Position numbers and translations under genes: made by a program. This document shows positions 7,588-32,943 of a stretch of DNA of 40,191 bases, piece by piece; position 1 is the first letter of the stretch; each line of letters starts with the position of its first letter. The notes beneath the pieces are model-generated. The model was not told the origin of the DNA. It did not search any database and worked only from the letters and a program-made list of their open reading frames with translations. The stretch comes from a virus, in the IMG/VR virus record IMGVR_UViG_3300007770_000037, positions 1 through 40,191 of that record, one strand, 5' to 3'.

Positions 7588-8373
7588 TCACGGTTTCGCG
7601 TCACGCGCCCGCTGCGCTCGCTTGCGACACGTCGGCCCGGCGTATCGCTGTCGGCCTTTTAGCCCGCCGACGGTACGCCCGCAACCGCACGCACAAACCC
7701 GCCTCGGGCTATCCCCAGGTGACACGATGTCACCTCGCGCGGGCAACCGATACGATCGCAAAACGGCCCGCGCCAACTCGCGCCCCATAGGCAACGGCAC
7801 GCCATTGCCGACCGCACGTTTGCGGCCCTTTTCGTTGAAATCCGGCAAGTCGAAATCGTCGGGCAAACCTTGCAACCGGCACAGCTCGCGAAACGATCGG
7901 CCGTCGCTTGCCATTGCGGGCGACTCGGCGTTTGGGTTTCGGTCGCGGCGCGGCACGTCGAGCAAATCGCCGTCGCGGGTGCCGTATTGAATATGCCGCA
8001 AACGGCGTTGCCCGCTAAACTCGTCGGCGTTGACGTCGAGGCGTTGCCGGTTGTATCCGGCAATTTCGACGTCGGGAACGCGCGCGACGTTTTCACATAA
8101 CCACCAACACGGCGAGGCGGCGACGACAACCCGCGCAAACTCGTCGAGCATTGCTAACCCGTAGCCGGTCGGCTCGACCCGGCGTGCGCCGCTGAAATCT
8201 TGACAGGGCGGCCCGCCTATGACGCCCCAAAACACGCCCTCGGGCGGTTTGAACGATCGAACGTCGCCGCCGAAAATTTTGTCGGGTCCGCGCACAACGC
8301 AAAACCCCTCGGCCTCAAACGCGCGGTCGAGCAAACCAACCCCAGGAAACAACGATAAAACGAGGTGCGGCAT
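7588..8373 (-). CDS. DNA (cytosine-5) methyltransferase
   Basis: The motif order of C5-methyltransferases is complete: motif I FPGVGLLDRAFEAEG (9-23) for SAM binding, motif IV GGPPCQDFS (53-61) with the catalytic Pro-Cys at 56-57, motif VI ENVARVP (94-100), motif VIII QRRLRH (122-127) and motif X AVGNGVP (187-193). At 261 residues it is short for the family. The target-recognition region (130-180) is small, and residues 227-252 add a CACGCGR...CRKR zinc-knuckle-like tail. The dispersed palindrome encodes GDIVSP exactly in the linker before that tail. No partner restriction enzyme is adjacent, so an anti-restriction or regulatory role for an orphan enzyme is likely. Confidence 0.95.
   Translation of the reverse strand: MPHLVLSLFPGVGLLDRAFEAEGFCVVRGPDKIFGGDVRSFKPPEGVFWGVIGGPPCQDFSGARRVEPTGYGLAMLDEFARVVVAASPCWWLCENVARVPDVEIAGYNRQRLDVNADEFSGQRRLRHIQYGTRDGDLLDVPRRDRNPNAESPAMASDGRSFRELCRLQGLPDDFDLPDFNEKGRKRAVGNGVPLPMGRELARAVLRSYRLPARGDIVSPGDSPRRVCACGCGRTVGGLKGRQRYAGPTCRKRAQRARDAKP
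7717..7735. repeat. Dispersed 19-bp palindrome, copy 2 (inside methyltransferase gene)
   Basis: AGGTGACA-CGA-TGTCACCT with perfect arms. It falls in the linker between the catalytic core and the Cys-rich tail of the cytosine methyltransferase and is translated as GDIVSP. Confidence 0.95.
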
Positions 8374-13899: not shown

Positions 13900-14487
13900 T
13901 TATTGCATTTCACGAGGCAGGCGCGGCAGGATTCGCGACCCGGCCGCAGTTGGGAAACAAGCAAACGCCGCCCGCGAAAAACCCGGCGCGGTTTGCTTGT
14001 GATAAACGCACGTTGATGTAAACCCGGCCTCGGCCAATAGCCCGTGCATCATTGCGCGATTTGGCCGAAACCAGTTTGTCGGGTTGTCGGGAAACAACGC
14101 CATAACCGGCGTCGGGTTGTCGTTGGGTAGGCATGCCGTCTCAATAAACAATTGCTCAATCGTTTTGATTCGCAAACGGCGCAGCAAACCGACGACGTCG
14201 GGAATGTGATAGAGCACGCCCGCGCATAACACAACGTCGGCCGGCGGCAGTTGCAAAAACGCGTCGGCCATAACGTCGACTTGCACAAACTCGACGTCGT
14301 GCATTTTCGGGCACCGCACAACGTCGACGCCGGTTGCCCAGGTCGCGCCGCGATTGATCGCCTCACGGACAAACCCGGCCGACCAACACCCGACGTCTAG
14401 GAATGTTTTGCCTGTCAAATCGTCGGGTAACTTGAGTGCGGACCACTCGGCCCGCACCTCGTCAAGATCGTACGTGCGTGCTTCCAT
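13900..14487 (-). CDS. Class I SAM-dependent methyltransferase
   Basis: The 195-residue protein has motif I FLDVGCWSAGFVREAI (29-44), an acidic GVDVV (53-57) after the second strand, the motif VQVDVMADAF, and motif IV DVVLCAGVLYHIPD. This is the Rossmann methyltransferase fold of the CmoB/UbiE kind. The VGCWSAG loop is close to that of tRNA wobble-uridine CmoB-type enzymes, but the rest is too divergent to name a substrate. It is the first gene of the minus early operon, just behind the divergent promoters at 14.6 kb, and may be a host-takeover, nucleoside or glycan methylase. Confidence 0.85.
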   Translation of the reverse strand: MEARTYDLDEVRAEWSALKLPDDLTGKTFLDVGCWSAGFVREAINRGATWATGVDVVRCPKMHDVEFVQVDVMADAFLQLPPADVVLCAGVLYHIPDVVGLLRRLRIKTIEQLFIETACLPNDNPTPVMALFPDNPTNWFRPNRAMMHGLLAEAGFTSTCVYHKQTAPGFSRAAFACFPTAAGSRILPRLPREMQ

Positions 14488-14642: not shown

Positions 14643-14918
14643 ATGGACGAAACAAGCCGAATTTTTAAACGCAACGTGCGAGCCGCAATTGCGGCCGACG
14701 ATCGATCGCAAACGGCAATTGCACTCGACGCCGGGCTAACGCAACCGCAGTTGTCGCACATTCTGTCGGGCGACCGATCGGTTACGCTACGCGTCGCCGC
14801 GTCGATTGCCGGCGGCCTCGGCGTTAACCTCGGCGAGTTAGTGCAACAAAACGAAAGGGCAAACGGTGCCAAACGAAAACGACCGGCAAGCAAACGAAAA
14901 CGACAACCCGCAAGATAG
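14643..14918 (+). CDS. XRE-family helix-turn-helix repressor
   Basis: The 91-residue protein has a Cro/CI-type HTH between about residues 22 and 48: SQTAIALDAGLTQPQLSHILSG, with the QPQLSHIL recognition helix, followed by RSVTLRVAASIAGGLGVNLGELV. The C-terminal 20 residues are very basic (AKRKRPASKRKR), which could add DNA binding. It is the first gene of the only plus operon and is driven by a promoter flanked by inverted CCTGTTGACG decamers, its likely operators (autoregulation). It may act as the Cro-like switch of the virus. The Rad52-like gene overlaps its end by 53 bases. Confidence 0.9.
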   Translation: MDETSRIFKRNVRAAIAADDRSQTAIALDAGLTQPQLSHILSGDRSVTLRVAASIAGGLGVNLGELVQQNERANGAKRKRPASKRKRQPAR

Positions 14919-17397: not shown

Positions 17398-19452
17398 TTA
17401 GTATGACAAGCGCACGCCCGGCCGACCCGCCCAGAAATGCCCCAGTCGCTCGCTGTCACGCTCTATCGTGACGTTAAACCCGGCCGACTCTAAACACTCC
17501 CGCAACGCCTCGGCGTTGTATACGGGCCATTGCGGCGACACGTACGCGACGTCGCCGGGTGCCGGCTTGTACTCGTGAAACTCGCCTAGCACGTAATCGA
17601 CCAAATCGAGGCGTTGTGAGGTCAACAGGGCGGGAAACTCGCCGCCCTCGCAATCGAGTTTCAGCAACGACACCCGGCCGAAACCCTCGGCGGCATGCTC
17701 TATCGCCGTATCTAGCGGCACGGCGGGCACGGTTTCACTAGCTCGGGCGGTTTCGCCAATCCCCAGCGTACAACCGCCGCCGCCCGTGTTTGCCGGGTCG
17801 GCTGAGTTGCAAAACGCCAACGAGTCGAAACCGGGTTGCCACACGGCCGCACGGTGCACCTCGGCCCGCTTGTTGTGCAACGCTAGGTTTTTCTCGGCGA
17901 GTTGATAGTTGCCCGCGCTCGCCTCGTACGCGTGCACGCGGGCGACGCCTCGGCGTAGGCATGCGAAACTAAACGAGCCGACGTGCGCGCCGACGTCAAG
18001 AATAACGGTGCCCGGTTTGAACCTCGCCGGCAATCGATATTCGTTTTCGGAAACGATCGAGTCAAAAATAGGACAATCCCAGGTGCCGGCCCTCGATTGC
18101 CAATAGCCCGGCCGATCGAGCGACGCCGGGCCGCTCGGGACTAACGAAACCTCGTTGCGCTCGTGCCATAGCCAACGACCGCGCCAAACGCCGTCGACGA
18201 GCCGCAAACGCATCATGCCGACCTCTTGGTTTTTGTGCGCGTTGCCAACGATCGTTAAAACCGGCTCGTCGTTTTCGAGTTGCAACGACCAACGTTTCTC
18301 GCAATCGGCACCGCCGACGCTAATTGCGCCGCCAGGGTCGAGCCGCAACGGCCGCGAGCCCCCGCCGCGAGTGTAAACGTACTCGCCCTCGATCGACTCG
18401 GCCGCGAGTTGCTCGGCCGCCGTGCTCGTTGCAACGTCGTAAATACGGCCCGACCAATGTTTAGCCAACTCGGCGCGAGCCCGCGTCGGTGCCCTCGGGT
18501 CAACTAGGCATTTCAATTCGGCACCCGCGCAGATTTGCGATTTACCTTGCGCGGCGTGTTGCGTAACTAGCCGCCCCTCGAAATCCTTTTGCATGATGCA
18601 CGGCCAGACCCAACCGGCCTTATGCGGCGAGATACTGTACGGCGTGCCGAGTTTACGCCATGCCAAATGATAGGTTGATTTGTCGCCGAAAACGAAACTG
18701 TAATACCAATCGCTGTACTCGTTAATAAACATCGTCAACAGCAACTCGGGCATGCAACGCGTTTTGTCGATTAGAAATTGCCCGCTTTCAAAATCCGGCT
18801 CGTTGATATAGTCGAGCCCCACGTTGCGCCAAACCTCGGGCGGCATCCACTCTTTGCGCGACCGGCCGGGCGGCAGGTCGGGCCAAAATATCGCGCCCGT
18901 TTCGGCGTATTGCGGCGAGCCGAATAGGTACGACGGGTCGGCCGCCGGTATAACGTCGGCGTCGAGATAGAGCACGTGCGCAAACCGCGAGTGCAACACC
19001 GAAAACGGTTTCAATTCCCAACCGTTGAGCCGGCGCGGCGGACGATCTAACCCGGCAATAACCTTTGTCGCGTCGACGACGGTTACGCCGGGCAGGGTCG
19101 CGGCGGCCCGTTGCATTTCGCGGTCGAACTCGCCCTCCCCCAAATGCCACAGCTCGACCGGCAAGTCGCACCCGAGGTGCCGCAACTCGTGGACGCACGC
19201 GTATGCGCACGTAAAAAACGTCGCACCGCCGGCACCTATCACAATGCCGTGCTCGTTGCCCAGGTCGGGCAGGTCGACACAACGTTGCACTCGCTCAACC
19301 TCTCGATCGAGCAACAGCAACTCGGCGTCGTGCGTGTTTTTCCATTTCTTCCAATGCTCGGGCAAATCGCCGATTGATTCGATTACGCCGGCCAAAACAT
19401 CGGCCGAGGTGTTTTCGGTTACGTCGCTCGCCTTAATCGCTGTCGTCGCCAT
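17398..19452 (-). CDS. Mannosyltransferase-like / FkbM methyltransferase fusion
   Basis: The ATG at 19450-19452 has GAAAGG before it and overlaps the Cys-rich gene by 20 bases. The 684-residue protein joins three parts. Residues 65-335 resemble putative fungal-type mannosyltransferases: GIVIGAGG, LNGWELKPFSVLHSRFAHV and the DxD metal site in LYLDADVIP (161-169). Residues 355-440 are a beta-rich linker domain. Residues 481-680 are an FkbM-family methyltransferase with VILDVGAHVGSF (483-494), YEAS (509-512) and LLKLDCEGGEF (596-606). It probably adds a hexose and then O-methylates it, on a virion glycoprotein or host surface sugar. It ends the tail-tip operon. Confidence 0.85.
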   Translation of the reverse strand: MATTAIKASDVTENTSADVLAGVIESIGDLPEHWKKWKNTHDAELLLLDREVERVQRCVDLPDLGNEHGIVIGAGGATFFTCAYACVHELRHLGCDLPVELWHLGEGEFDREMQRAAATLPGVTVVDATKVIAGLDRPPRRLNGWELKPFSVLHSRFAHVLYLDADVIPAADPSYLFGSPQYAETGAIFWPDLPPGRSRKEWMPPEVWRNVGLDYINEPDFESGQFLIDKTRCMPELLLTMFINEYSDWYYSFVFGDKSTYHLAWRKLGTPYSISPHKAGWVWPCIMQKDFEGRLVTQHAAQGKSQICAGAELKCLVDPRAPTRARAELAKHWSGRIYDVATSTAAEQLAAESIEGEYVYTRGGGSRPLRLDPGGAISVGGADCEKRWSLQLENDEPVLTIVGNAHKNQEVGMMRLRLVDGVWRGRWLWHERNEVSLVPSGPASLDRPGYWQSRAGTWDCPIFDSIVSENEYRLPARFKPGTVILDVGAHVGSFSFACLRRGVARVHAYEASAGNYQLAEKNLALHNKRAEVHRAAVWQPGFDSLAFCNSADPANTGGGGCTLGIGETARASETVPAVPLDTAIEHAAEGFGRVSLLKLDCEGGEFPALLTSQRLDLVDYVLGEFHEYKPAPGDVAYVSPQWPVYNAEALRECLESAGFNVTIERDSERLGHFWAGRPGVRLSY

Positions 19453-19828
19453 TGGTCGCCTTTCGCTCGGGACAATCGAGGCAAACGGCAACGGTGTGCC
19501 TGTCGTCGCGGCCTCGGATAGATAACGTGCACTCGGGTTTCGGTATCCCGACACACGTGCACGAGTAAATTTGGTGCGCCTCGTCGCGCCCGCCGCACAA
19601 CGTGCAATTTACGACTCGGGTTTTTTCGCCTCGGTATACGCACGACGTTACGTCGTCGAGCGACTCGCGGCGAGGCGGCGTCGCGGTCGGCGGCCCGGTT
19701 TTTAGCCAACACTTCCAGCACGTCGGCGGCGCGGGCAACCCGACCGAGCCTTGCCCGCAATGGCAGAAAAACCCGCCCGCCGGGCCGGGTTGAAAATCGC
19801 ACGGCGAGGTTTCGTCGCGAGGCGGCAT
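19433..19828 (-). CDS. Cys-rich zinc-binding protein of the tail-tip operon (131 aa)
   Basis: The ORF starts one base after the stop of the gene before it and ends 20 bases inside the glycosyltransferase gene. It has CHCGQG (22-27), CWKCW (37-41), CTLCGG (75-80), CTCVG and CLDCPER near the end, i.e. at least ten cysteines in CxxC or CxC pairs. The pairs could hold several zinc ions or disulfides. Such a short multi-ribbon protein beside a tail gene is unusual. No family is recognised. Confidence 0.75.
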   Translation of the reverse strand: MPPRDETSPCDFQPGPAGGFFCHCGQGSVGLPAPPTCWKCWLKTGPPTATPPRRESLDDVTSCVYRGEKTRVVNCTLCGGRDEAHQIYSCTCVGIPKPECTLSIRGRDDRHTVAVCLDCPERKATNGDDSD

Positions 19829-20611
19829 TTATATTTTCTCCAACGTAACCGTCGCGCCGGCGGTTAGGTGTTGACCAAAACACCAACCCGTCGAGCAATT
19901 GTTTGCGGGTTTCGGGCAGCTCGGGCCATTCGGCCATAGTATCGGCCCGGCCGGGTTTGAGAGAATCCACGTAGGGCACTCGGGTCGGTCGGGCGCTAAA
20001 TCCTCGTCGTCGAGGGACCACGAGAAATTGTTTGTGCAGTTGATCGCAATGCCGAGTCGATAAACCGCAAACCTAAAATAATGGTCGCCGATTACGTCAG
20101 GCGGCGGCGGGCCGACTTTTGGCGTGTACGTTATCGTGTACGGCATGCTGATACAGTCGGTCGTTATGAAATCCCAAAACGACCCGCACCGATTTGCGAT
20201 CGAACCCATATTGCCGCACTTTGGATCGCACGAGTCTAGCGCGCCGTCAAATGCACGATCTAAATCAATTTCGCCGTCGCACGCGATCAGCCCGTTAACG
20301 GTTGCCGTCGTGCTTTGAAATGACGCAACGCACGAGCCTTTTGGCCGATGATAAAGATACGACCCGTTGACGTTGCGAAAATCGATTGTTTCGGTAACGT
20401 CATAAAACCAACTCGACGTATCGGTGCACGACACTTGATCGAACCCGGCCAACGTTAGCCGGTAGTCGCTGCTGCCCTCTAAAATGTCGGTGCAATAGTA
20501 GCACGGCACGCCCTCGCAACAGCAAAGATCGAGCACCGACAACCCGCCGTCGGGTTGCTTTAGAGGTTTGCCGTTATGGAGTTTCCACAAACCCGCAAGT
20601 CGGTTTGTCAT
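19829..20611 (-). CDS. Cys-rich tail-tip protein (260 aa)
   Basis: The protein starts MTNRLAGLWKLHNGKP and has an early LCCCEGVPCYYCTD cluster (28-41), then CDGEIDLD, CDPKCGNM, NRCGS, DCISMPY and more cysteines along the length, with beta-type strands between. The CCC-x3-PCYYC cluster recalls hypothetical proteins found in Planctomycetota prophage-like regions. It lies between the tail-tip proteins and the glycosyltransferase fusion and is probably exported to the virion surface, where disulfides would be stable. Function unknown. Confidence 0.75.
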   Translation of the reverse strand: MTNRLAGLWKLHNGKPLKQPDGGLSVLDLCCCEGVPCYYCTDILEGSSDYRLTLAGFDQVSCTDTSSWFYDVTETIDFRNVNGSYLYHRPKGSCVASFQSTTATVNGLIACDGEIDLDRAFDGALDSCDPKCGNMGSIANRCGSFWDFITTDCISMPYTITYTPKVGPPPPDVIGDHYFRFAVYRLGIAINCTNNFSWSLDDEDLAPDRPECPTWILSNPAGPILWPNGPSCPKPANNCSTGWCFGQHLTAGATVTLEKI

Positions 20612-20620: not shown

Positions 20621-21610
20621 TTAAAATTCGCCCGTCATGCCTTCGCCGGTTTCGCACGAGCCCGACTCGCTGCCGCCGCTGAAAACCGACCCGCTGCCCA
20701 ACGAGCCCGCGTCGCAACACGAGTTGACGTCGTAAGCAAACGCATAGTCGGGCGCAATCCAGCCTGTCGCACCGCTGCCGCTATCGCTTCCAGCGCTGCC
20801 GCCGACGCAGTCGCTATATTCGACGATGTCGCAAACCTTATTCGGGATAACTCCGAAATTCATCGACGCCATTAGCTCGACTTTAGTTAACGCGCCGGGG
20901 TGCGTTGTATCGAGCGACGGCGAGTCGACAACGTCAACGACTACGCATACGCCGTGCATTTGCGGTTGAAATACAAACCAACCCGAAAACGGCTCGGCCC
21001 CCGACTCAACCGAGTGTACGGCCGCCGCTTGCCTCAACAATACGTAATCGTTTTCGAGTCCTTGCCAACGAAGTAATGTATTGTCGGCCGTGAAAACCGA
21101 CACGGGCAACCCGCTGTCGACGTCGACAGCGCCCGGTTTGAAATACGCCGACGGGTCGTCGTGCCGTAGCGGTTTACTTAGCTGCGCTTTGACCAGGGCA
21201 CCGCCTCGCGGCAACGAAAACCACCACTCGCCGTTTTGCTCGTCGCCCCAACACCGTTGCCAGTGTGCGATAACGGGCGTGCCCTCGGGAACCCAACCCG
21301 GCGTGCAAATATTGCGGGCGGTCGCGCCGTACTTAGTTGTCGGTGCGTTGCGTAGCTTGTAAATCGTATCGCGAAAACCGGGCAACGGCCTAAACGCCGC
21401 ATCGATAAACGCAATGCGAAACACGTTGCCGGGCGGGTCGGGATATTGCGGCGAGTCGTTTTCGCCGCACGTCGTAATCGCCAAAAACTGGTGCCGGCTG
21501 TCGTCGGCCGACGAGTCGCGTTGCATATTCTCGACCAGCTCGCCGAGCCGCTCGACTTGCGTTTGCAATTGCTCGATTTCGCGCCGGTCGCTCGGGTCGC
21601 GGGTTACCAT
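20621..21610 (-). CDS. Tail-tip protein with N-terminal coiled coil (329 aa)
   Basis: The ATG at 21608-21610 has GAGGCGG before it; the longer open frame would translate the palindrome and the bipartite element and has no ribosome site. Residues 7-27 (DRREIEQLQTQVERLGELVEN) are a heptad coiled coil, followed by beta-rich sequence. The last 60 residues are Gly/Ser/Cys-rich (DCVGGSAGSDSGSGATG, CCDAGSLGSGSVFSGGSESGSCETG), a flexible, possibly disulfide-linked tail. It is probably part of the tail tip or a host-contacting appendage. No family is recognised. Confidence 0.75.
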   Translation of the reverse strand: MVTRDPSDRREIEQLQTQVERLGELVENMQRDSSADDSRHQFLAITTCGENDSPQYPDPPGNVFRIAFIDAAFRPLPGFRDTIYKLRNAPTTKYGATARNICTPGWVPEGTPVIAHWQRCWGDEQNGEWWFSLPRGGALVKAQLSKPLRHDDPSAYFKPGAVDVDSGLPVSVFTADNTLLRWQGLENDYVLLRQAAAVHSVESGAEPFSGWFVFQPQMHGVCVVVDVVDSPSLDTTHPGALTKVELMASMNFGVIPNKVCDIVEYSDCVGGSAGSDSGSGATGWIAPDYAFAYDVNSCCDAGSLGSGSVFSGGSESGSCETGEGMTGEF

Positions 21611-21646
21611 GCTTGCCGCCTCGCTTGTGACTTTGCCGGCGGCGCG

Positions 21647-21665
21647 AGGTGACACGATGTCACCT
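21647..21665. repeat. Dispersed 19-bp palindrome, copy 6
   Basis: AGGTGACA-CGA-TGTCACCT. It lies 37 bases before the start of the tail-tip gene at 21610 and directly abuts bipartite element copy D, one base apart. Confidence 0.95.
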
Positions 21666-21666
21666 C

Positions 21667-21693
21667 GTGAAAATCCGCGGCGGCCATTGTGAC
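21667..21693 (-). promoter_or_regulatory. Bipartite GTCACA-N15-TTTCAC element, copy D
   Basis: On the minus strand GTCACA, 15 bases with CCGCGG, TTTCAC, pointing at the tail-tip gene at 21610. It adjoins a copy of the 19-bp palindrome, so the two systems may act together here. Confidence 0.6.
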
Positions 21694-21717
21694 AGGTTAT
21701 AACAAAACGCCGGCAAA

Positions 21718-24117
21718 CTAAATATCGCCGACCGGCTCGGGCCATAGTTGCATAGCGTCTAGCTCGCCGGCCCAGGTTTGCAACGTCATTTTCGGCACGC
21801 CGTTTAACGGGTACGTAAACCCGATCGACGTTATAACGGTGTTGACCGTTTTGCGGTTGTCGTCGTACGGTGCCGTCGTCGTGTAATCGAAACCGACAAC
21901 CTCGACCATTACACCCAGGTCGAGCAACTCTTTAAAATCGGCGATCGCCTCGGCACCGTTGTTGCGAGCACGCAATTGCACCGACTCTAGCGAAATCACC
22001 TCGCGGGTTTCGGTATACCAACGGGCGGCAATCCTCGCGATTGATTCGAGCCGCGTTTTTACGTCGTCGGTGCCGAGTGCCGGCGGGAAAAACCCGCCGT
22101 TGCTCCGAACTAGGGCGCCCGTGTCAGGATCGACGCCGACAACCGTTGACGGCACGACGTATGTTAGGTCGTAACCCTTGCCGGCGTTAATGATCTTGGC
22201 GCGTACGTAGTCGCGGCTGTGATCGACGACCGGCCAACGCGACTCGACGTACCGAGGGTCGCGGATTGCGAGCGTAACGATTCCGTGCGTGTTTAAATCC
22301 CACTCGGCTAGTTTCTTATCAACTCGCAACGTCTCGTGCTCGATCGGCACAAATGACGTTTCGTTGTCGAGGATGTGCCGAGGTGCGCCGGTTACGTTTA
22401 GCCGCACTTGCCGCGACTCGTGCGGCACCTCAACTCGGCAACTCCATTTGTGCGAGTCGCGGTGTTTACTGTCGGTCGTTTCGATGTCGGCGGCCTTTGC
22501 CAACTCGTCGGCCTTTGCCCAACGTTGTTGCGCCTCGGGTTTGTCTTTCGTTTCGGGCACCCGCAGCACGAGAAACGGGCGCATACGTTTCGGCTCGTCG
22601 CCGGCGGCGGCGAGGTTAACTAGCCCGCTGCCGAGGATTGCGCCCGAGTAGTCGACGCCAACGTATAGCGGCAACGTCGATTCTAAATAGGTCGATCGAA
22701 TATGCGCGGCGACAACCTCGGGCCGGTCGTCGTTGTCGCGGGTTTCGGTGTCGTGAGGAAACACGGCGTAACGCTCGTCGTGCGTTAGCCAATCGCCGAG
22801 CCCGTTGCCGGTTGTAAATCCCCAGTCGGCCGGCAATTGATAGAGCGTAAACACGTCGGCGAGTCGCGGTTGCGCCCTTGCCTCGGCGTTTCGTTTCTGT
22901 CGCTCGGTTGTGCCGAGATCGGCATAGTCGGCGGCATTGCTCGCGGCCTCGTTGTATTCGTCGGTTAGCGTTTTCGGCACGCCAGTTTCGTCCCACCCTT
23001 TTTCTAAGTTTGTATCGGCGATCGAAACCGAGAACACCGACACCCGCCGAGGACCTCGCACGATAACCTCGTCGACTTTTTCGATACCCGACGACGACAG
23101 GGCAACCGTTGTGCCTTGGTCGTAGTCGTACCGCAATTCGATCTTACGCGGGTTTTCGGGTATCGGGTCGGCCGTCGGAATTGCTAGGGCAATGTCGGCC
23201 TCGGTTAGCGTGTTAACGTTTAAGTAAACGCCTAACTCGGGTAGGTCGTTGTCGATAACCTCGAAGAACCAGGACCATAGCCGGCGGCGGTCGAGCAACC
23301 GACCGAGCAACGAGTAAACGGTTTGCCCGGCTTGCTCAATCGTTGGACGATCCCAGGTCGGCAAGTTAACGGCGATCGTATCGTAAAACGGCAACTTAAC
23401 TTGGCCGAAACGATCGCGAGGCGCGGCCCGGTGCAACAGGTATTTAACAATGTCCGACGTGCTCCAATAGCTCGCCGCCGTCGAGGGTGTTGCTGTGAAC
23501 ACGTGCGAGTCGGTGCCGCCCGGCCCGCCAGTCGCGACCGTGTCTAAACTGCGATTGGCTAACCCGCCCTCGTTGAACGGCGGCGCGTACGGTTGCTCGG
23601 TAACCTCTATCGCCGACGTATCGGGGTTTGTCCACTCGAAAAACGCTCGGTCTATAACGTGATCGGCGAGCACTTTTTCGAGCCCGTAGCACGTAAAGGT
23701 TTGCTCGCCCGTCGGGATTGGTATTGCCTCGTCGCCCTCGGTGCGCTCCAACACGCCGCCCCATTGGTCGCCCGTAATGTCGAGCACGCCGTACCAATCA
23801 CGATTTAGAATCGTATCCTCGTCGTCGAAACTATAGTCGAGAGTCGGGCAAACGATCTTGACGTAAAGGCGGTTGCGGCCCGTCATGCGAGCGCGCCGAA
23901 AGTATTGCGGCAACGACGGCGTGCGCAACCAACCGTATTGCCAAAACAACGTCGCGGTCGGCAACGAGGGTGCGCACGACCAATTTACCTCGGTCGGCCA
24001 TAGGTCCGGTTGTATCGCCCAATCGTCGGCCCAGTCGGTGCGAAAGTAAACCGAGGGCGACAACGTGCCGTGCCCTCGGCCCGTACCATACCCGCCGAAA
24101 TTTACTAAGTCGGCCAT
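21718..24117 (-). CDS. Baseplate hub / tail-tip protein (799 aa)
   Basis: This is the largest gene of the window. The N-terminal 100 residues (VNFGGYGTGRGHGTLSPSVYFRTDWADDW) are followed by a region with WYGVLDITGDQWGG and GEQTFTCYGLEKVLADHVI that resembles the barrel-type core of tail hub proteins (gp27/gpD-like). Residues 200-330 include ARRxxG-type loops and SWFFEVIDNDLPELGVYLNV. The last 150 residues (ARWYTETREVISLESVQLRARNNGAEAIADFKELLDLGVMVEVVGFDY) are typical of hubs. Position right after tape measure and distal-tail genes agrees. It has no lysozyme or peptidase motif that I can see. Confidence 0.65.
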   Translation of the reverse strand: MADLVNFGGYGTGRGHGTLSPSVYFRTDWADDWAIQPDLWPTEVNWSCAPSLPTATLFWQYGWLRTPSLPQYFRRARMTGRNRLYVKIVCPTLDYSFDDEDTILNRDWYGVLDITGDQWGGVLERTEGDEAIPIPTGEQTFTCYGLEKVLADHVIDRAFFEWTNPDTSAIEVTEQPYAPPFNEGGLANRSLDTVATGGPGGTDSHVFTATPSTAASYWSTSDIVKYLLHRAAPRDRFGQVKLPFYDTIAVNLPTWDRPTIEQAGQTVYSLLGRLLDRRRLWSWFFEVIDNDLPELGVYLNVNTLTEADIALAIPTADPIPENPRKIELRYDYDQGTTVALSSSGIEKVDEVIVRGPRRVSVFSVSIADTNLEKGWDETGVPKTLTDEYNEAASNAADYADLGTTERQKRNAEARAQPRLADVFTLYQLPADWGFTTGNGLGDWLTHDERYAVFPHDTETRDNDDRPEVVAAHIRSTYLESTLPLYVGVDYSGAILGSGLVNLAAAGDEPKRMRPFLVLRVPETKDKPEAQQRWAKADELAKAADIETTDSKHRDSHKWSCRVEVPHESRQVRLNVTGAPRHILDNETSFVPIEHETLRVDKKLAEWDLNTHGIVTLAIRDPRYVESRWPVVDHSRDYVRAKIINAGKGYDLTYVVPSTVVGVDPDTGALVRSNGGFFPPALGTDDVKTRLESIARIAARWYTETREVISLESVQLRARNNGAEAIADFKELLDLGVMVEVVGFDYTTTAPYDDNRKTVNTVITSIGFTYPLNGVPKMTLQTWAGELDAMQLWPEPVGDI

Positions 24118-24135
24118 TAAAAACCCGCCTCAATT

Positions 24136-24162
24136 GTGAAATCTCGAGCCGCGTTTTGTGAC
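24136..24162 (-). promoter_or_regulatory. Bipartite GTCACA-N15-TTTCAC element, copy E
   Basis: On the minus strand GTCACA, 15 bases with CTCGAG, TTTCAC, ending 18 bases before the hub gene ATG. This spacing is too short for a normal promoter plus leader unless transcription starts inside it. Confidence 0.55.
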
Positions 24163-24186
24163 AAACCAGGCCGTCGATTGTCGTTT

Positions 24187-24717
24187 TTACGTGCCAAAAT
24201 ATGCAATGCACGACCAACCGTCGCCGTCGGTGCCCGTAAATCGCAAATCTTTTTCGCCCGCTGCAACGGCCGGCGTTGCGAGCGCTGCGCCGTAGTAAAC
24301 GAGCTGGTTGCGTGCGCCGGGATAGAATCGAGGAATGATACCCGAGCCGATAAAGTCGTAACCGTTTGCGCCTTGCGGGCCAAACGCAACGCCGGCGGTA
24401 TTGTTTGCCGCTAAAAATATCAATTGCAACGCCAGCAACTTAAAACCCGTCAGGTCAACCGTGCGGGTAATATCCTCGGCCAACGGTGCCGCCGTTAGGT
24501 CGAAATCTTTAGTTGTTCCGCCCGACAACGTGTGCGATAGATCGATTGGCAATTCCGTTAACGCGGGCGTTGACGAGGCGTTAAGCGTAAACGACTCGTT
24601 GTACGCCGAAAACTTGTCGGTGCGGCCCGACAACGGTGCGCCCGGTGCTGATGTCGCGTCGCGCTCGACTGTGCCTAGTAATGATGTTGCGGCGTTTAGC
24701 TTTACTGCGTCGGCCAT
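24187..24717 (-). CDS. Virion structural protein (176 aa)
   Basis: The product is a Ser/Thr/Ala/Gly-rich beta protein (KLNAATSLLGTVERDATSAPGAPL, TKDFDLTAAPLAEDITRTVDLTG, then ALQLIFLAANNTAGVAFGPQG). This kind is common among small tail or head surface proteins. The C-terminus (EKDLRFTGTDGDGWSCIAYFGT) ends in beta strands. No family is named with confidence. It lies between the distal-tail-like gene and the hub gene, so a baseplate or tail-tip role is likely. There is no sign of an enzyme. Confidence 0.7.
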   Translation of the reverse strand: MADAVKLNAATSLLGTVERDATSAPGAPLSGRTDKFSAYNESFTLNASSTPALTELPIDLSHTLSGGTTKDFDLTAAPLAEDITRTVDLTGFKLLALQLIFLAANNTAGVAFGPQGANGYDFIGSGIIPRFYPGARNQLVYYGAALATPAVAAGEKDLRFTGTDGDGWSCIAYFGT

Positions 24718-24728
24718 TGTTCAAACCT

Positions 24729-25142
24729 CTAGAGTATTGGGTGCGGTGTCAACACGATTCGCATTTTGGCGACGCCGCCAAACGGGTAGTAATACGTCGG
24801 GCCGAGGGCACCGTTTAACGCGTACGCGTCCGGCTCGATAATGCGGTCAACCGAATATAGGTGCCCATAAATTCCGGCGTAATTAACGTTGTTGTATTTG
24901 AGTTGCAACGGCCCGACGCCAACTAGCGTATTCCAAAACGCGAGGGCGGCTTGCGCTTCTAGGTAGGTCGAAAACACGTGCCGTAACTCGCGCTCAAACT
25001 GCCGGCCTTTAACGCCGGTTTGCACTTGATAGGTGCCCCAGGTGCCCGGCCGCGTATGGTTTTCGACTTGCGGTTGCGCAAACTCTGGCGCGGGTCCTAT
25101 CCAATGCTCGAAATCGTAAACGTCTATGCCGTGCGCGGCCAT
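24729..25142 (-). CDS. Distal-tail-like protein (137 aa)
   Basis: GAGGTG precedes the ATG. The 137-residue protein reads HGIDVYDFEHWIGPAPE, then QVQTGVKGRQFERELRHVF, TYLEAQAALAFWNTLVGVGPLQLKYNNVNYAGIYGHLYSVDRII. The NVxYAGIYGHLYSVDRI segment and the strand order recall the Dit/gpL-type ring proteins or the N-terminal half of minor tail proteins after the tape measure. The gene position directly after the tape measure matches. Assignment is by position and style, not by a sure motif. Confidence 0.6.
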   Translation of the reverse strand: MAAHGIDVYDFEHWIGPAPEFAQPQVENHTRPGTWGTYQVQTGVKGRQFERELRHVFSTYLEAQAALAFWNTLVGVGPLQLKYNNVNYAGIYGHLYSVDRIIEPDAYALNGALGPTYYYPFGGVAKMRIVLTPHPIL

Positions 25143-25155
25143 TTGTGCACCTCGT

Positions 25156-26670
25156 TTATTCTGTCGACAACGCCGTTGCGTTTTGTTGTGCCTGTTGTGC
25201 GTTGCGACGTTTGCTCGGCGTTAGCCGGCCCGCGTTTAGCTCGTCGCGGATTTCTTCTAGGATCTTGATTTGCGAAAGTATCAACGCGTTTTGGTCGTTG
25301 ATTTCCTTTAGGGTGCGGTCGGCGGTTACGTCTTGCATGCCTTGCAACGAGTTTGCCAAAACGGCAATGCCGGTTTCGGGGTCATTGCCCGAAATGCCGA
25401 GCCCGATACGACGCGCACCGCGTTGCATAAAACTTTCGATCGGCGTTGCCCCGCCGTAATCGATTTGCCCGAGCGTACCAATAACGATGTCGGCGACCTC
25501 GTCTCGCAACGCGCCGGCGCTTCTCGTTCGCGACGCCTCTAATAATCCTTTACCTCTAGCGTCGCGGTCGACCGTGCGTAACTCGCTCGTGCCGCCTCGC
25601 AACACGGCGGCCATTTTGTCGGTTGCCTCGACGCTGCCGACGATCTTACCAAACGCCGCTTGCAACCCTCGGCCGGCCTCGGTGTCGGCACCGCTCAATA
25701 GTTGCTTAACGGCGAGTACCGTTTGCCCTTTGAAACCCGACTTTGTAACCTCGGCCGCCAACTTGCCCGACTTATCCGCTTGTACGTGCGCGAGTCGCTC
25801 AAACGTTGTTTCAAATTGCGGCACCAACGTTGCAAGGTTTTTTTCGAGATTGATTACGGCGGTTTTTGTTACGGCCGCGTCAGGGTCGCCGATTTGCGAG
25901 CCGATCGAGGCAAACAACGCCGCCGTTTCTCGGGTCGATTTAATGCGGTCGGTCGAGCCTGTCGTTGCGATCTTGCCCGAGGCAAGCGCCGGCGCGACTT
26001 GTTTAAACCCGCTCAACCCGGTAAACCTCGCTTGCCCTTGCACGGCGAGCAACAACGCGAGGGTTTCTTTAGCGTCCTTGCTGCCGGTAACCTTCATTGC
26101 ATCGCCGAGCGCGCCGCCAAACTCGGCCAAGTCGTCGGGCGCATCCTTAAAAAACACGGCGGCTTTGTCGAGGATTTCTAGCGTTTGCCCTTTGTTGCCG
26201 GCGGTCGCCGACAGGATCGACGAGGCGGCTTGATTCAACGGCGCGACCGACTCGAAACCCGATCGTTTTTGCACGCCCTCGATTTGCTTTAGAAACGCGT
26301 TTGCCTCGTCCTTGCCGACGCCGAGCCCGAGGTTTTTTATAACGGCCGCTTGCGATTGGCCGACCGTTAGTTTTGTATCCTTCGCCTCACCTTGCAATCT
26401 GTTTTGCTCGGCGAGCGCTTGGTTGAATATTGCGAGGGCGGCTTGCGCACCAAAATACGACGTTGCCAAACTCTTGACGGTGCCCGCGAGTTTCGACGTT
26501 GACGACTCGGCCTTGCGTGCGCCGGCCGCGCCCGTGTCGCCGGCCTTGCGAGCCGACTTTTGCACGCGGTCGTAACCCGTTTGCATTTTGACTTCTTGGG
26601 CGATTAGCTTTTGCTGCGCCTTGAATAACCGCGCCTCGGCCGACGTGAACTCGACGACAACTTTACCCAT
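25156..26670 (-). CDS. Tape measure protein
   Basis: The protein is 504 residues: short for a tape measure. The N-terminal 80 residues (VVVEFTSAEARLFKAQQKLIAQEVKMQTGYDRVQKSARKAG) start with the beta-helix pattern typical of tape measure proteins, and the remainder is Ala/Lys-rich helical sequence with a few hydrophobic stretches (SYFGAQAALAIFNQALAE). It starts 9 bases after the frameshifted end of the chaperone. At about 0.15 nm per residue a tail of roughly 75 nm is expected if the whole chain spans it. No peptidase or lysozyme domain is visible. Confidence 0.85.
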   Translation of the reverse strand: MGKVVVEFTSAEARLFKAQQKLIAQEVKMQTGYDRVQKSARKAGDTGAAGARKAESSTSKLAGTVKSLATSYFGAQAALAIFNQALAEQNRLQGEAKDTKLTVGQSQAAVIKNLGLGVGKDEANAFLKQIEGVQKRSGFESVAPLNQAASSILSATAGNKGQTLEILDKAAVFFKDAPDDLAEFGGALGDAMKVTGSKDAKETLALLLAVQGQARFTGLSGFKQVAPALASGKIATTGSTDRIKSTRETAALFASIGSQIGDPDAAVTKTAVINLEKNLATLVPQFETTFERLAHVQADKSGKLAAEVTKSGFKGQTVLAVKQLLSGADTEAGRGLQAAFGKIVGSVEATDKMAAVLRGGTSELRTVDRDARGKGLLEASRTRSAGALRDEVADIVIGTLGQIDYGGATPIESFMQRGARRIGLGISGNDPETGIAVLANSLQGMQDVTADRTLKEINDQNALILSQIKILEEIRDELNAGRLTPSKRRNAQQAQQNATALSTE

Positions 26671-26679
26671 TGCGACGCC

Positions 26680-27587
26680 CTACCATTTTAAAGTTTGTGC
26701 CGCCCGGTGCGACACGTGCAACCCGGCGTCGAATGCCCGCAAGTCGGCAAACGTCGGCCGGTAGTCGCTGTGCCGGCCGTTTTCGACGACCAACGCCCAG
26801 CGTAGAAACGTCAACCAACGTCGGCCGCCGGTTTCGACTCCCCTTTTTTTTTAATAAACGATTGCCAAGTTTCGTTATCGAGCAAAACGTCGAGGATACG
26901 CGCCCGCGTGTGCTCGCCCATAATGTCGAGCAAATCCAACTCGGGCAACCAAACGCGATAGTTAGCTTGCAATGCCATAACGGCGAGCATATCGGCTTGC
27001 TCAAACTCGACGCGTAACGTCGTGTCAAACTCGTTTGCGTTTCGCAACGCCTCGGCGATCGCCTCGTTGTACGACGAGGCGAGCAACCAAAGCGCCTCGT
27101 ATTTTCGATCGACGCCGACCGGCTCGTAACGCTCGGTCGCTGTGCTCCACTTGAGCCGCTTAGGCAACGCGCACTCAAAATGCGGCTCGGGTTGCTCGAC
27201 AAACTCGCGTGCCGTCGGGCATAGCCACTTGTTGCCGTCGGGCAGTTGCAACCAACGACCGCCGAGCACATCTTGAGCCCGCACAACGTCGTCGGGTTTT
27301 GGCGGGTTTTCTCGGTCGCAACCAACCCACCAATCGCCGCCGCCGAAATCCTCGGCCGGCACCCAGCGTTGCCGCTCGGCGAAATGCCCGAGTTTTTCTT
27401 TGCCGAGCTGCTTACGGCCGACGATAACGCCCGGCCCGCCCGAGGTATTGAGGGTGCGCGACGGCCCGGCGGCGGTTTCTCGCTGTATGAAATCGTCGGC
27501 CGCGTCAAACGCATAGGATAACCCCAGCTCGGCGAGCCGCTCGATTGTCACGCGGTTACGCTCGCCCGGTATGAAATAGAGAAACAC
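26680..27587 (-). CDS. Tail assembly chaperone, frameshifted long form (about 302 aa)
   Basis: The first 248 codons are those of the short form. At 26844-26850 the mRNA reads A AAA AAA followed by GGGG, a perfect slippery heptamer. Slipping back one base gives 54 further codons without a stop, ending at a TAG at 26680-26682, nine bases before the tape measure ATG. The extra part (LTFLRWALVVENG, YRPTFADLRAFDAGLHVSHRAAQTLKW in pieces) reads like protein and not like an antisense shadow. Lambda G/GT and most siphophages use the same device, with the long form loading the tape measure. The shift itself is inferred, not proven. Confidence 0.8.
26811..27587 (-). CDS. Tail assembly chaperone, short form (258 aa)
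   Basis: The unshifted product begins MFLYFIPGERNRVTIERLAELGLSY. It has a central region with WVPAEDFGGGDWWVGCDRE, a four-helix C-terminal part (YEALWLLASSYNEAIAEALRNANEF, FEQADMLAVMALQANYRVWLPELDLLDIMGEHTR) and ends FIKKKGESKPAADVG. It is unusually long for a gpG-type chaperone; the N-terminal 120 residues are extra and unrecognised. It sits in the chaperone position, between the tail tube and tape measure genes, and the frameshift site falls at the very end. Confidence 0.8.
   Translation of the reverse strand: MFLYFIPGERNRVTIERLAELGLSYAFDAADDFIQRETAAGPSRTLNTSGGPGVIVGRKQLGKEKLGHFAERQRWVPAEDFGGGDWWVGCDRENPPKPDDVVRAQDVLGGRWLQLPDGNKWLCPTAREFVEQPEPHFECALPKRLKWSTATERYEPVGVDRKYEALWLLASSYNEAIAEALRNANEFDTTLRVEFEQADMLAVMALQANYRVWLPELDLLDIMGEHTRARILDVLLDNETWQSFIKKKGESKPAADVG
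26844..26850 (-). other. Programmed -1 ribosomal frameshift site
   Basis: Slippery heptamer A AAA AAA within a run of nine A, followed by GGGG, in the frame X XXY YYZ. A stem-loop may form in the GC-rich 26760-26840 sequence after it, but I did not fold it. Confidence 0.75.
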
Positions 27588-27662
27588 CGTTGCACCTCGC
27601 CGTTTTTGCCTGTTTTGTCACAACGACCGGCGGCGCCTTGTCACAACGCCTCGATCGCACGG

Positions 27663-27980
27663 TTACGCTTTGCCCTTCTGTGCGGCCTTGCTGCCCTTCT
27701 GTGCGTCGCTGCCGGGTTTCGCCGCAAGATCCTCGACCGCCGCCGTAGCTTGCGCCTCGGCCCGCTTGGCGGTCGCCTCTTGGCGTTTCCGCTCGCTATC
27801 CGCGACGAGGCATTGCAGTTTGTCGGCACCGCCTTTATCGCAATCCGCTAGGGCGGCAACCTCGGTCGCGACGTTGTCGGCCAAACTCTCAACGATCGAC
27901 TCGGCCGCAAACCGCCCGCAACCCGTAAACCGTTGCACTTGCTTTGCCGCCGCCGCCTTGGTTTCGTTACTCGACGCCAT
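27663..27980 (-). CDS. Small protein between tail tube and chaperone (105 aa)
   Basis: The start is the ATG at 27978-27980 with GAGGG before it; the longer frame would begin inside the dispersed palindrome. The sequence is a helical N-terminal part (NETKAAAAKQVQRFTGCGRFAAESIVESL) and a long Lys/Ala/Glu-rich second half (DSERKRQEATAKRAEAQATAAVEDLAAKPGSDAQKGSKAAQKGKA), probably extended or disordered. It has cysteines at 22 and near 50. It lies in the tail module and could be a minor tail or assembly protein. No family is recognised. Confidence 0.7.
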   Translation of the reverse strand: MASSNETKAAAAKQVQRFTGCGRFAAESIVESLADNVATEVAALADCDKGGADKLQCLVADSERKRQEATAKRAEAQATAAVEDLAAKPGSDAQKGSKAAQKGKA

Positions 27981-28008
27981 AGTTTCGCCCTCGATTGCAG
28001 GTTGCGCG

Positions 28009-28027
28009 AGGTGACACGATGTCACCT
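28009..28027. repeat. Dispersed 19-bp palindrome, copy 7
   Basis: AGGTGACA-CGA-TGTCACCT, in the 52-base gap between the tail tube gene and the gene starting at 27980. Confidence 0.95.
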
Positions 28028-28032
28028 CGATT

Positions 28033-28974
28033 TTAGTAGGTCGCCGTTGTGTCGATAATCAACGGCGCATTGCCCGACGAGTCTTTCATTGATTCAATTA
28101 CTAGCGATTGTTCGGCCGGGTTTTGCGCTTGTGCATCGGCCGCCGCCCGCACCGTAACCGGCCCGGCCGAGGTTATCTCGATATGCTCGGCGGTGCCATT
28201 GGAAACAAACCCGTCGCCCGACCCGTCGCCGAGCCGCTTACGCAACACGACCGTCGTATTTGCGTGCGTGCCAGCCGCACCGCCGATCGTGATACCCGAC
28301 GCGCCAAACCAAGTCGGCGAGATTCCGCGCACTGTAATGCGCGGCGCGCTGGTTTTATTCTCGATGTGCGCATCCCAAATATCAGATTGCACGCCGCCGG
28401 GGTTTACCTCGTTGCCGAAATCGATTTCGACCGATCGGTATTGCGACAACGTTATATTGCCAAAGTCGATCGGGCCGAGGGTCCAACGGGCCGGCGAAAT
28501 CGTGATAGTCGGCAACGCGGCGACGTCCGAAATTACGACGGCGTCGGTGCCCGACTTTTTAATTATGACAACGTCGAAACTTAGCGTTGCGTGCCCTTGG
28601 TGATCGCACGACAACGTGCGAGGGATTAGCCAACCGCTCTTGACGGTTAGCGAACGGTGCACCGACCCGGCCGAGGGCGAGCCCAGGTCGTCGAACTTTT
28701 GCAGGTATAACCCGATTCCAGGGTTGACCGTTGTTACAACCGCGAGCCCGGTTGACCCCATTAAGTCGAGCAACGTTGCGATCGCGTACCCTTGCAACGA
28801 TCGAGTCGCACGAGCCGACATAACCGACGCGTGCGAGGGCGACGTTTCGTTTGCTGTAACCTCGCGGTCGATGTCAAACTCGAAATCGTCATTTGCCGAC
28901 ATAATGTCGGGCACGTTTGTTGCGCTCGCCGAGTCGACGTGCGATTGCATGCAAAATAGTTTGTGCGTTGCCAT
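28033..28974 (-). CDS. Major tail (tube) protein
   Basis: The 313-residue product begins ATHKLFCMQSHVDSASATNVP. It has alternating strands throughout (TLSFDVVIIKKSG, ITISPARWTLGPIDFGNIT, VEIDFGNEV, PRITVRGISP) and a late Ala-rich loop, as expected for the beta-sandwich tube proteins. Residues 60-110 (YAIATLLDLMGSTGLAVVTTVNPGIGLYLQKFDD) contain a strand-helix-strand segment. Position after the neck genes and before the chaperone pair is the classical tube place. Direct family naming is not possible from the motifs alone. Confidence 0.75.
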   Translation of the reverse strand: MATHKLFCMQSHVDSASATNVPDIMSANDDFEFDIDREVTANETSPSHASVMSARATRSLQGYAIATLLDLMGSTGLAVVTTVNPGIGLYLQKFDDLGSPSAGSVHRSLTVKSGWLIPRTLSCDHQGHATLSFDVVIIKKSGTDAVVISDVAALPTITISPARWTLGPIDFGNITLSQYRSVEIDFGNEVNPGGVQSDIWDAHIENKTSAPRITVRGISPTWFGASGITIGGAAGTHANTTVVLRKRLGDGSGDGFVSNGTAEHIEITSAGPVTVRAAADAQAQNPAEQSLVIESMKDSSGNAPLIIDTTATY

Positions 28975-28977
28975 TGG

Positions 28978-29484
28978 TTAACCTCGTGCTTTGTACTCGG
29001 AACGTTGGCGGAAATCGGCGAGGCGTTGTCGCATGCGCCTGTCGAATACTTTGACTAAAACGTAAACCTCGCGCTCGCTAACCGCTGTCATTTCGCGCAA
29101 TTGATTTACCCGCGAGTTGCGGATAACACGCACGCGCACGCTCAACGGTATACGTACGCCTTTCGACGACGCCCGCACGTCAACAACTCGGGCCATTCGC
29201 CGCATCAAACCCGAGTATACGTTTGGCAACGTGTGCCCGAAACGTTTTTCCTTTCGACCCGTGTACGTCGACGCGTAACGTTTCGGGTTGCCCTTTTGCA
29301 ACTCGCCCTTGCGGCGGGTGTATTTGTACTCGCGAGCGCCGGCGGCGGTAAAGTGCTTGTCGCGATAACGCGAATGCCACAACATGCCGGTTTCGTGCCA
29401 TTGCGCCTTAACTTGCGCACGCCATGCTTTGCGAAAGCTACTCGGCACGACGCCGGCTTTTTTGACTTTTAATAACGCGACCAT
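28978..29484 (-). CDS. Tail completion / neck protein candidate (168 aa)
   Basis: The protein is basic (VKKAGVVPSSFRKAWRAQVKAQWHETGMLWHSRYRDKHF), with a region of conserved-looking aromatics and a closing beta part (GVRIPLSVRVRVIRNSRVN, EVYVLVKVFDRRMRQRL). HK97 gp10-like and minor-tail Z-type neck proteins have similar size and charge. It lies just before the tube gene, where tail terminator or completion genes are found. The assignment is positional. Confidence 0.6.
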   Translation of the reverse strand: MVALLKVKKAGVVPSSFRKAWRAQVKAQWHETGMLWHSRYRDKHFTAAGAREYKYTRRKGELQKGNPKRYASTYTGRKEKRFGHTLPNVYSGLMRRMARVVDVRASSKGVRIPLSVRVRVIRNSRVNQLREMTAVSEREVYVLVKVFDRRMRQRLADFRQRSEYKARG

Positions 29485-30039
29485 TTAACCGCCCTCGCTG
29501 CCTTGCCCTATGCGAAACTCGACTATCGCGGCAAAGCAGTCGCCGAGGGTCGGGTTGCGTTTGGCGTTGCCTCGAAACGGTGCGGTCGACAACTCGGCCG
29601 CGTTAATGTCGGCGTACGGATAAACGCCCGACATTGCGAAAACCTGTTGCATTGTTTGGCCGACGGCGTTTGCAAAGTCGATGTCGCCGCCCTCGTTGTC
29701 GCCCTCGAAACCCGCCGGCGTCGCTTGCTCAAACGTTGCGTGCACAACGACCGACAGGTTGAAACCCTGCCCGGTTTGCGACGACGAGTTGCGCAATAGC
29801 GTTACGCCGCCGTCGGGCGTTTCCACTTGAATAAACGGCCGCAGCTCGTCGAGGGCGGCTCGGGTAATCTCGCCGTCGCGGTTTAGCTTTACGGGTAAAA
29901 TCTGCCCGTGAATCCGCCCCAACGCGTCGAGGCGATCGGAAACGTCGAGAAACGCTCGCGCGGCGTCGCTGTCGGCGATCGCGAGGCGCACTTTATCTAT
30001 CGGCGTTGAAATCGGGCCGGCCGGCGTACGTCGTGTCAC
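29485..30039 (-). CDS. Neck / tail terminator candidate (184 aa)
   Basis: The gene overlaps the one before it by 4 bases. It encodes an acidic protein with IDKVRLAIADSDAARAFL near the start and PFIQVETPDGGVTLLRNSSS, FNLSVVVHATFEQATP, GDCFAAIVEFRIGQGSEGG strands. The pattern resembles tail terminator (gpU-like) proteins that cap the tube, or a minor connector. No signature motif decides. It belongs to the neck cluster between capsid and tube genes. Confidence 0.6.
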   Translation of the reverse strand: MTRRTPAGPISTPIDKVRLAIADSDAARAFLDVSDRLDALGRIHGQILPVKLNRDGEITRAALDELRPFIQVETPDGGVTLLRNSSSQTGQGFNLSVVVHATFEQATPAGFEGDNEGGDIDFANAVGQTMQQVFAMSGVYPYADINAAELSTAPFRGNAKRNPTLGDCFAAIVEFRIGQGSEGG

Positions 30040-30449
30040 TTTATCGCACCTCGCCGGTTAATCGTTTTTTGGCCCTCGAATATCAAACCCAACTCGGCGC
30101 AACCGCCCGACGTGCGGGCTATGGTTTCAATTGAGTATGTTAGCAACAACCCGTCGGGCGTTTCGACTTCAACCGTCGCGGCGTCGTCGACCAGCTCGAC
30201 GCCCGAGAAACCCTCGGCGTTGCGATCGGTAACAAACGACAACGCGCGGGTTTTCACCCAACGCAAACCCGCCGGGCCGTAATCGCCCTCGCGCTCAACC
30301 TCGACCTCGCCGGCTAGTATCGCATTGTCGATCGTTTTTGCGTTGCTGTCGTCGCCTCGACCGTCGCCGGCGGGTACGTACCGCACGACGTCGCCGCTTT
30401 GCTTATGCAACGCGCCTTGCGATCGTGCAAATTGTTGATCGAAACCCAT
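30036..30449 (-). CDS. Head-tail joining protein candidate (137 aa)
   Basis: The product starts MGFDQQFARSQGALHKQSGDVVRYVPAGDG. It has beta strands such as GEVEVEREGDYGPAGLRWVKTRALSF, VEVETPDGLLLTYSIETIA and CAELGLIF. Lambda FII-type and other small stopper proteins have this size and beta-barrel style. It is the first gene after the capsid gene and before the other neck genes, the place of a stopper. The family assignment is not certain. Confidence 0.6.
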   Translation of the reverse strand: MGFDQQFARSQGALHKQSGDVVRYVPAGDGRGDDSNAKTIDNAILAGEVEVEREGDYGPAGLRWVKTRALSFVTDRNAEGFSGVELVDDAATVEVETPDGLLLTYSIETIARTSGGCAELGLIFEGQKTINRRGAIK

Positions 30450-30472
30450 TTGCCAACGCCCTATATAAAAAT

Positions 30473-30509
30473 GCGACGCGCCGCCGTCTCAGGGAAGGCG
30501 ACGCGCCGC
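30473..30509. repeat. Direct repeat in the gap after the capsid gene
   Basis: GCGACGCGCCGC occurs at 30473-30484 and at 30498-30509, a 25-base period. On the minus strand a T5 run follows the second copy. The gap of 111 bases has no gene; a GCCGGC pair further on may form the stem of a terminator. Confidence 0.6.
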
Positions 30510-30560
30510 GCGACAAACAGGCCGGCGCACGTGTCGTCGGCCGGCTTGTCGACCCGTACG

Positions 30561-31574: not shown

Positions 31575-31634
31575 TGTTCAAACCCTCGTGATTTAGTAAA
31601 CGGAAACTAAACGAAATCCGTTGCCGGTTTCCGC

Positions 31635-32012: not shown

Positions 32013-32052
32013 TATTCAACCTCGAAACTAACTTGCCGAAACGTCGCCCAGT

Positions 32053-32936: not shown

Positions 32937-32943
32937 CGCGCGG

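Follow-up and report, generated by a model that had tools for sequence, protein, structure and literature searches.

A gene of a phage, located on the minus strand from 17398 to 19452, specifies a protein of 684 aa in which a GT71-type glycosyltransferase (GT), an all-beta domain designated MID, and an FkbM-type methyltransferase are joined. That this protein is an enzyme with two activities, predicted to transfer a sugar and to methylate a sugar, is well supported by its sequence and by modelling, because the two family matches, the two folds, and the intact motifs agree, and the parts are repeatedly fused or adjacent in other phages. The two steps had been proposed in an earlier note on the same DNA, and the evidence speaks for both activities. 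Encoded in the structural operon, the enzyme probably adds a sugar to the tail-tip protein of the same phage and O-methylates that sugar. A tail protein is preferred as acceptor because pairing of the GT with a Gly/Ser tail gene was found to be conserved in both directions of searching. The stretch of DNA that was analysed as a whole, referred to as the window, is the entire IMG/VR virus record IMGVR_UViG_3300007770_000037, comprising 40,191 bases.

The fusion gene is a single frame without stops from the ATG at 19452 to the stop at 17398. Its GT domain, residues 61-340 (18433 to 19272, minus strand), matched Mannosyl_trans3 (PF11051) over residues 68-197 and a second stretch with an E value of 3.3e-35 and 122 bits, far above the curated cut-off of 22. 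AlphaFold2 (AF2) modelled the domain with pLDDT above 90, and a GT-A fold with DxD, as is characteristic of GT71, was evident from the model and from Foldseek. The nearest solved structure in the Foldseek searches was 7xjv, the yeast GT71 alpha-1,3-mannosyltransferase MNT2 (E 1.4e-11, 16% identity); TM-scores to MNT2 were low (0.28 by query, 0.38 by target), in part because the alignment spans 294 columns of a chain of 684 residues. The DxD motif D164-A-D166 (18955-18963, minus strand), the E-x-G motif, and the GDKxT motif are invariant in 44 family members. The term "mannosyl" is a family name only, and retaining alpha-1,3 transfer of mannose from GDP-mannose, as GT71 would require, is a putative activity here.

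MID occupies about residues 345-440 (18133 to 18420, minus strand) and was modelled as eight strands at 356-439 with pLDDT of about 90 or above. It is conserved in GT-MID relatives and has no match in Pfam. The methyltransferase, about residues 455-684 (17401 to 18090, minus strand), matched FkbM (PF05050) over residues 486-659 with an E value of 3.1e-13 and 50.6 bits, exceeding the curated cut-off of 22.7. A full-length AF2 model built from an alignment of 36 rows showed block pLDDT values of at least 85 over residues 11-440, but was poor in the methyltransferase part, mostly 24-36 for residues 451-570, because methyltransferase rows were misplaced in the alignment. This domain was therefore modelled separately, yielding a class I fold with pLDDT 89 and pTM 0.90. 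The FkbM structure 2py6 gave the top query TM-score (0.52) among the 50 Foldseek matches listed. No variation was seen across 16 methyltransferase sequences in the SAM motif (DVGAHVG in the window, 17977-17997, minus strand) or in the K-x-D-x-E-G motif; both are intact in the window protein, so that profile, class I SAM fold, and motifs all indicate the FkbM class. The composition given in the earlier note, a mannosyltransferase-like domain with DxD linked through a beta domain to an FkbM methyltransferase, was thereby confirmed.

The minus strand of the window carries a gpA-type terminase, a lambda-type portal, a Clp-like head protease, and a major head protein. Since the GT gene is located in a virus record together with these structural genes, it is phage-encoded. 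Positions 21099 to 40191 are 99.99-100% identical to another record, IMGVR_UViG_3300007754_000380 (19,093 bases), and L004 represents a diverged relative of the window phage with a terminase of 65% identity; the region of the fusion gene lies outside the coverage of both. The window and the former record stop at the same base, 40191, which may mark where the genome truly ends or reflect an assembly break common to both. Several other genes of the window were recorded in passing. A second small class I methyltransferase is encoded at 13900-14487, and a C5-cytosine DNA methylase-like gene, in which the catalytic region is matched in part only, is located at 7588-8373. Two adjacent genes at 2180-3882 have E1_FCCH-like and tail-tube-like repeat domains in common; 51-nt repeats recur within them, and a tail-collar gene (1705-2166) and a lectin-like gene (956-1705) accompany the pair, distant from the GT.

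The operon has the order candidate tape measure, two small genes, a 799-aa protein, the gene at 20621-21610, a Cys-rich protein, CYS1, and GT-MID-methyltransferase. The candidate tape measure, a protein of 504 aa devoid of Cys (25156 to 26670, minus strand), was chosen by position and composition, and profiles of tape measures failed to recover it. From its place in the structural operon, the gene order of relatives, and the weak profile match of the adjacent gene, the 799-aa protein (21718 to 24117, minus strand) is presumed to be the tail tip. The label "tail tip" used in the earlier note is retained on these grounds, but received no support from protein families, as no match was obtained in Pfam, PHROG, or GenBank phages. 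A pairwise HMM comparison of the tail genes of the window with those of L017, L018, L042, and L030 also gave no match, and we infer the tail identity of the window genes upstream of the fusion gene.

Three Cys-rich proteins, noticed before as neighbours of the enzyme, are real. CYS1 (131 aa, 13 Cys; 19433 to 19828, minus strand), recognized by homology to an ORF of L018 and by profile search, is encoded by a gene overlapping the GT gene by 20 nt. It is followed in the upstream direction by a protein of 260 aa with 17 Cys (19829 to 20611, minus strand), judged by composition and position to be a possible tail protein or acceptor candidate. The third gene (20621 to 21610, minus strand) more likely starts at ATG 21610, yielding 329 aa, rather than giving 354 aa; 9 Cys were counted in the longer version. 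By composition and a weak profile match, its product with Cys and a Gly/Ser-rich C-terminus is the candidate acceptor. It was the only window match, albeit weak (E 0.0035), to a tail family preceding Gly/Ser genes in Planctomycetota prophages. Its Gly/Ser stretch is weak as well, with 12 of 16 residues and below the strict threshold defined below, and the acceptor is therefore less certain in the window phage than in relatives. In L017, L018, and L049, CYS1 is fused to the GT and corresponds to the N-terminal portion of the chain, and a profile made from these three and the window protein matched nothing else among the loci then collected; CYS1 was seen only with GTs. CYS1 and MID are most likely parts for recognition of the acceptor. 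Overall, Cys-richness of upstream neighbours was mildly raised (Mann-Whitney p 0.004), and the share of upstream neighbours with at least 3% Cys did not differ significantly. Being mild, Cys-richness is not used as a main argument.

A palindrome of 19 nt, AGGTGACAnnnTGTCACCT, is present in nine exact copies over 40 kb, starting at 4044, 7717, 11276, 14533, 16346, 21647, 28009, 32918, and 36141. None were expected and none occurred in shuffled sequences. The copies are mostly located at gene borders, one of them near an HTH gene (14643-14918), and each also contains a start codon and an AGGTGA resembling a ribosome site. Apart from loci of the same phage, the palindrome was absent from all loci examined. 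The set looks like dispersed operators of the stoperator kind, and the copy at 21647 to 21665, 37 nt upstream of ATG 21610, is a possible operator of the present gene set.

Relatives of the GT were found neither by tblastn in GenBank phages and plasmids, the latter yielding weak FkbM matches only, nor in a scan of viral single proteins. IMG/VR was searched with a DNA pattern for the motif GDKxT...LAW, revealing 64 stretches, and 44 of 44 scanned representatives matched Mannosyl_trans3. A pattern ending in LA[FY] missed the family because LAW is present in its members; L007, obtained in this way, is a chance match. A scan of genome collections added 50 loci, the best and longest of which are located in Planctomycetota MAGs. 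Judged from these sequences, Planctomycetota are likely hosts of the window phage.

Comparisons among these loci revealed that GT and methyltransferase are combined, in one chain or as adjacent genes, in many IMG/VR phages and in Planctomycetota genomes, a search that had been suggested along with the fusion itself. In L017, L030/L050, L040/L065, L042, L092, L095, L096, and L139, GT-MID is followed by a directly adjacent or overlapping separate FkbM gene. GT and FkbM form a single chain with no recognisable MID in L035, L039, L041, L055/L059, L079, and L124. The longest arrangement, a chain of 1077 aa in L018 (L018:3496-6729), consists of CYS1, GT, a diverged region aligning to MID, FkbM, and a sulfotransferase-like end, and this type of relative may, by its sequence, sulfate the sugar in addition to methylating it. 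The same contig, listed alongside L072, also encodes a putative sulfotransferase of 217 aa and a glycosyltransferase-like gene. In a quick tree, the window GT groups with GT-MID phage proteins of L050, L056, L066, and L071 (SH-aLRT 87). The fused state needs three changes on this tree, a count that cannot separate gain from loss. PHROG scans of neighbours in the relatives were mostly without matches. Judged by sequence, a further GT-methyltransferase combination is seen in L008, L047, and L068, in which the GT71-type domain is C-terminal and located behind other, non-FkbM methyltransferase domains. Stand-alone GT71-type genes of 300 aa end an apparent tail module in L019, L021, L028, L034, L043, L052, and L062, following a protein that is large or Cys-clustered and lacks Gly/Ser tracts; use of the family in connection with tails may thus be broader. 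A description of the GT71-MID-FkbM cassette was not found in the open-licence literature, which does not by itself prove novelty.

Long Gly/Ser tracts, such as (SGS)n in L096 and (GS)n in L042, are frequent in genes upstream of GTs bearing MID or FkbM. For counting, a strict tract was defined as at least 19 Gly plus Ser in 24 residues on the same strand within 4.5 kb upstream, and loci were required to have at least 1 kb of upstream sequence. Since the Gly/Ser proteins of four loci (L049, L092, L099, and L139) lie outside the first ORF picks, the association test was done in six frames. Tracts were present upstream of the GT in 13 of 22 MID/FkbM-linked loci, but only in 1 of 52 others (p 5.7e-8, a descriptive value, the definition having been set after the pattern was seen). 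The sole exception among the 52, L069, proved to be FkbM-fused once the contig was extended (L079). Outside this upstream interval, 1 of the 22 linked loci contained a tract.

A reverse search, independent of the GT, was run with a pattern based on EFPxxxGR(F/Y)LMR(F/Y), a motif of the Gly/Ser tail protein. It revealed 38 loci, 23 of them with a GT downstream, either directly after the stop or behind one small Cys-rich gene. All 15 GT-negative loci are contig ends with at most 613 nt past the stop; where more than 613 nt were available, GT-MID was directly downstream in 20 of 20 loci. The 23 GTs form 12 clusters at 90% identity, with pairwise identities down to 52%. Beside generic (GS)5 tracts in viral contigs this GT was found in 0 of 32 cases, and the claim of pairing is therefore restricted to one tail-protein family and its relatives. 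Because these relatives share descent, the pairing is partly inherited gene order and does not represent many independent events. The prophage-like loci L093 and L096 contain a tape measure, tail genes, the Gly/Ser protein, and GT-MID, with FkbM next in L096. This order matches the window, and parts of it are visible in L095 and L097. Of 19 viral GT loci for which at least 7 kb was available, 9 have a tape-measure-like gene upstream, the label being a reading of the seeds.

From these data, a soluble enzyme is envisaged, the GT71-type domain of which would move a sugar from a nucleotide-sugar to a hydroxyl of the tail-tip protein encoded in the same operon. The acceptor residue would most likely be a serine of the Gly/Ser-rich region in the product of the gene immediately upstream, and the FkbM domain would then use SAM to O-methylate the attached sugar. 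Acceptor, O-linkage, donor, order of the steps, and position of the methyl group are all predictions. The phage could benefit by stability of the tail tip, by shielding, or by altered adsorption.

Other targets have to be considered. The methylated sugar might be added to an envelope glycan or a surface protein of the host, with the result that the receptor is altered and other phages are kept out. Surface glycans are frequent substrates of FkbM enzymes. Phage glycosyltransferases altering the host surface are known, as stated in PMC12619734. However, the gene is part of a late structural operon and is paired with a tail gene in relatives, no GtrA/GtrB-like partner was detected among the window proteins scanned, and no membrane-spanning stretch stands out in the enzyme, its hydropathy peak being a core strand of the GT fold. 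A host-surface target therefore appears unlikely. Of the two targets offered in the earlier note, the virion protein is favoured by the pairing with tail genes in both search directions, and the host surface gained no positive evidence. A different virion protein, be it one encoded at 19829-20611 or 19433-19828 or still another, could also be the acceptor, if the Gly/Ser tract in relatives were just a flexible linker. The weak tract in the window would fit, as would the common occurrence of Cys-rich neighbours in FkbM-linked loci and the existence of members without a Gly/Ser neighbour, for example L071, where an apparent tail fibre gene with an intramolecular-chaperone-type end lies upstream. 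Yet the motif of the Gly/Ser protein predicts the GT in all 20 usable loci, and GTs lacking MID and FkbM hardly ever have such tracts beside them. We regard a different acceptor as improbable too.

It is even more doubtful that the fusion is a passenger gene (moron) with no role in the virion, kept through inherited gene order. Relatives do have descent and gene order in common, and not all GTs of the family have MID, FkbM, or a Gly/Ser neighbour, but the pairing persists for GTs down to 52% identity, the pieces have been re-fused in several ways, and the catalytic motifs are intact. Very little speaks for glycosylation of modified bases in phage DNA, although DNA-modifying virus-encoded GTs are known, as cited in PMC12619734, and the window contains the C5-cytosine methylase-like gene mentioned above. 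No gene for base hypermodification was detected among the window proteins scanned with Pfam, the fusion gene adjoins structural and not replication genes, and the fold is nearest to protein and glycan GTs.

Glycosylation of the phage's own tail-tip protein thus remains the preferred reading. Few examples of glycosylated phage virions have been described, and in these the acceptors are on capsid and tail tube. In the present case, a specific acceptor can be predicted from gene order, together with a product formed in two steps, sugar plus methyl, for a group of phages whose GT had no relative in the GenBank phages searched. It becomes directly testable which virion proteins carry sugars and what attaches them, and MID and CYS1 constitute new parts for study.

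In comparison with known systems, the GT domain resembles fungal GT71 enzymes of the MNN1/MNT2 type (PF11051, 7xjv) in family profile, best solved fold, DxD, and GT-A architecture. It differs from MNT2, to which identity is 16%, in being part of a soluble phage enzyme with additional MID and methyltransferase domains. Likewise, the C-terminal part shares family, class I fold, and the SAM and K-x-D-x-E-G motifs with FkbM sugar O-methyltransferases (PF05050, 2py6), but is fused behind a GT and has a putative substrate. The best structural match in a viral library (BFVD), A0A6J5NND2, 25% identical over 322 columns, is an "AdoMet_MTases domain" protein of an uncultured Caudovirales phage. Its name suggests another GT-methyltransferase fusion, but with 511 aa it is too short for three domains of the size found in the window.

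An experimental precedent is A064R of chlorovirus PBCV-1, which attaches sugars and places an O-methyl group on the last of them (PMC9614988). Both proteins combine GT and methyltransferase domains in one virus protein. A064R, however, consists of two rhamnosyltransferases of other families followed by the methyltransferase and acts on the N-glycan of a capsid protein in an algal virus, whereas the window enzyme has one GT71-type GT, a beta domain, and the methyltransferase. As domain families and order differ, the window enzyme is not an A064R, but by analogy may work like one. In the mycobacteriophages Che8, Corndog, and Myrna, phage GTs glycosylate capsid and tail tube (PMC12363180, PMC12619734). 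Phage-encoded GTs acting on virion proteins are the common element, proposed from genes in our case; the descriptions considered include neither a GT71-MID-FkbM fusion nor a Gly/Ser tail acceptor. Virus-encoded glycosylation of virions is therefore already known, and the GT71-MID-FkbM cassette with a Gly/Ser tail gene would add a variant.

A repetitive serine-rich acceptor encoded beside GTs (GtfA/GtfB) and carrying O-linked sugar is known from serine-rich-repeat adhesins (PMC6973325). A repetitive serine-containing candidate acceptor gene beside the GT is clear in the relatives and weak in the window. The adhesin system employs other GTs and accessory Sec export and is located on the bacterial surface, and Pfam revealed neither GtfA/GtfB nor accessory Sec families in the window proteins scanned; the comparison concerns the way of working only. 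In this sense, we tentatively suggest, as something quite possible though not yet favoured, that the Gly/Ser-repeat tail protein, the Cys-rich module, GT71-MID, and FkbM of Planctomycetota phages might together form an O-linked methyl-sugar coat of the tail tip, a phage counterpart of the glycosylation of serine-rich-repeat adhesins.
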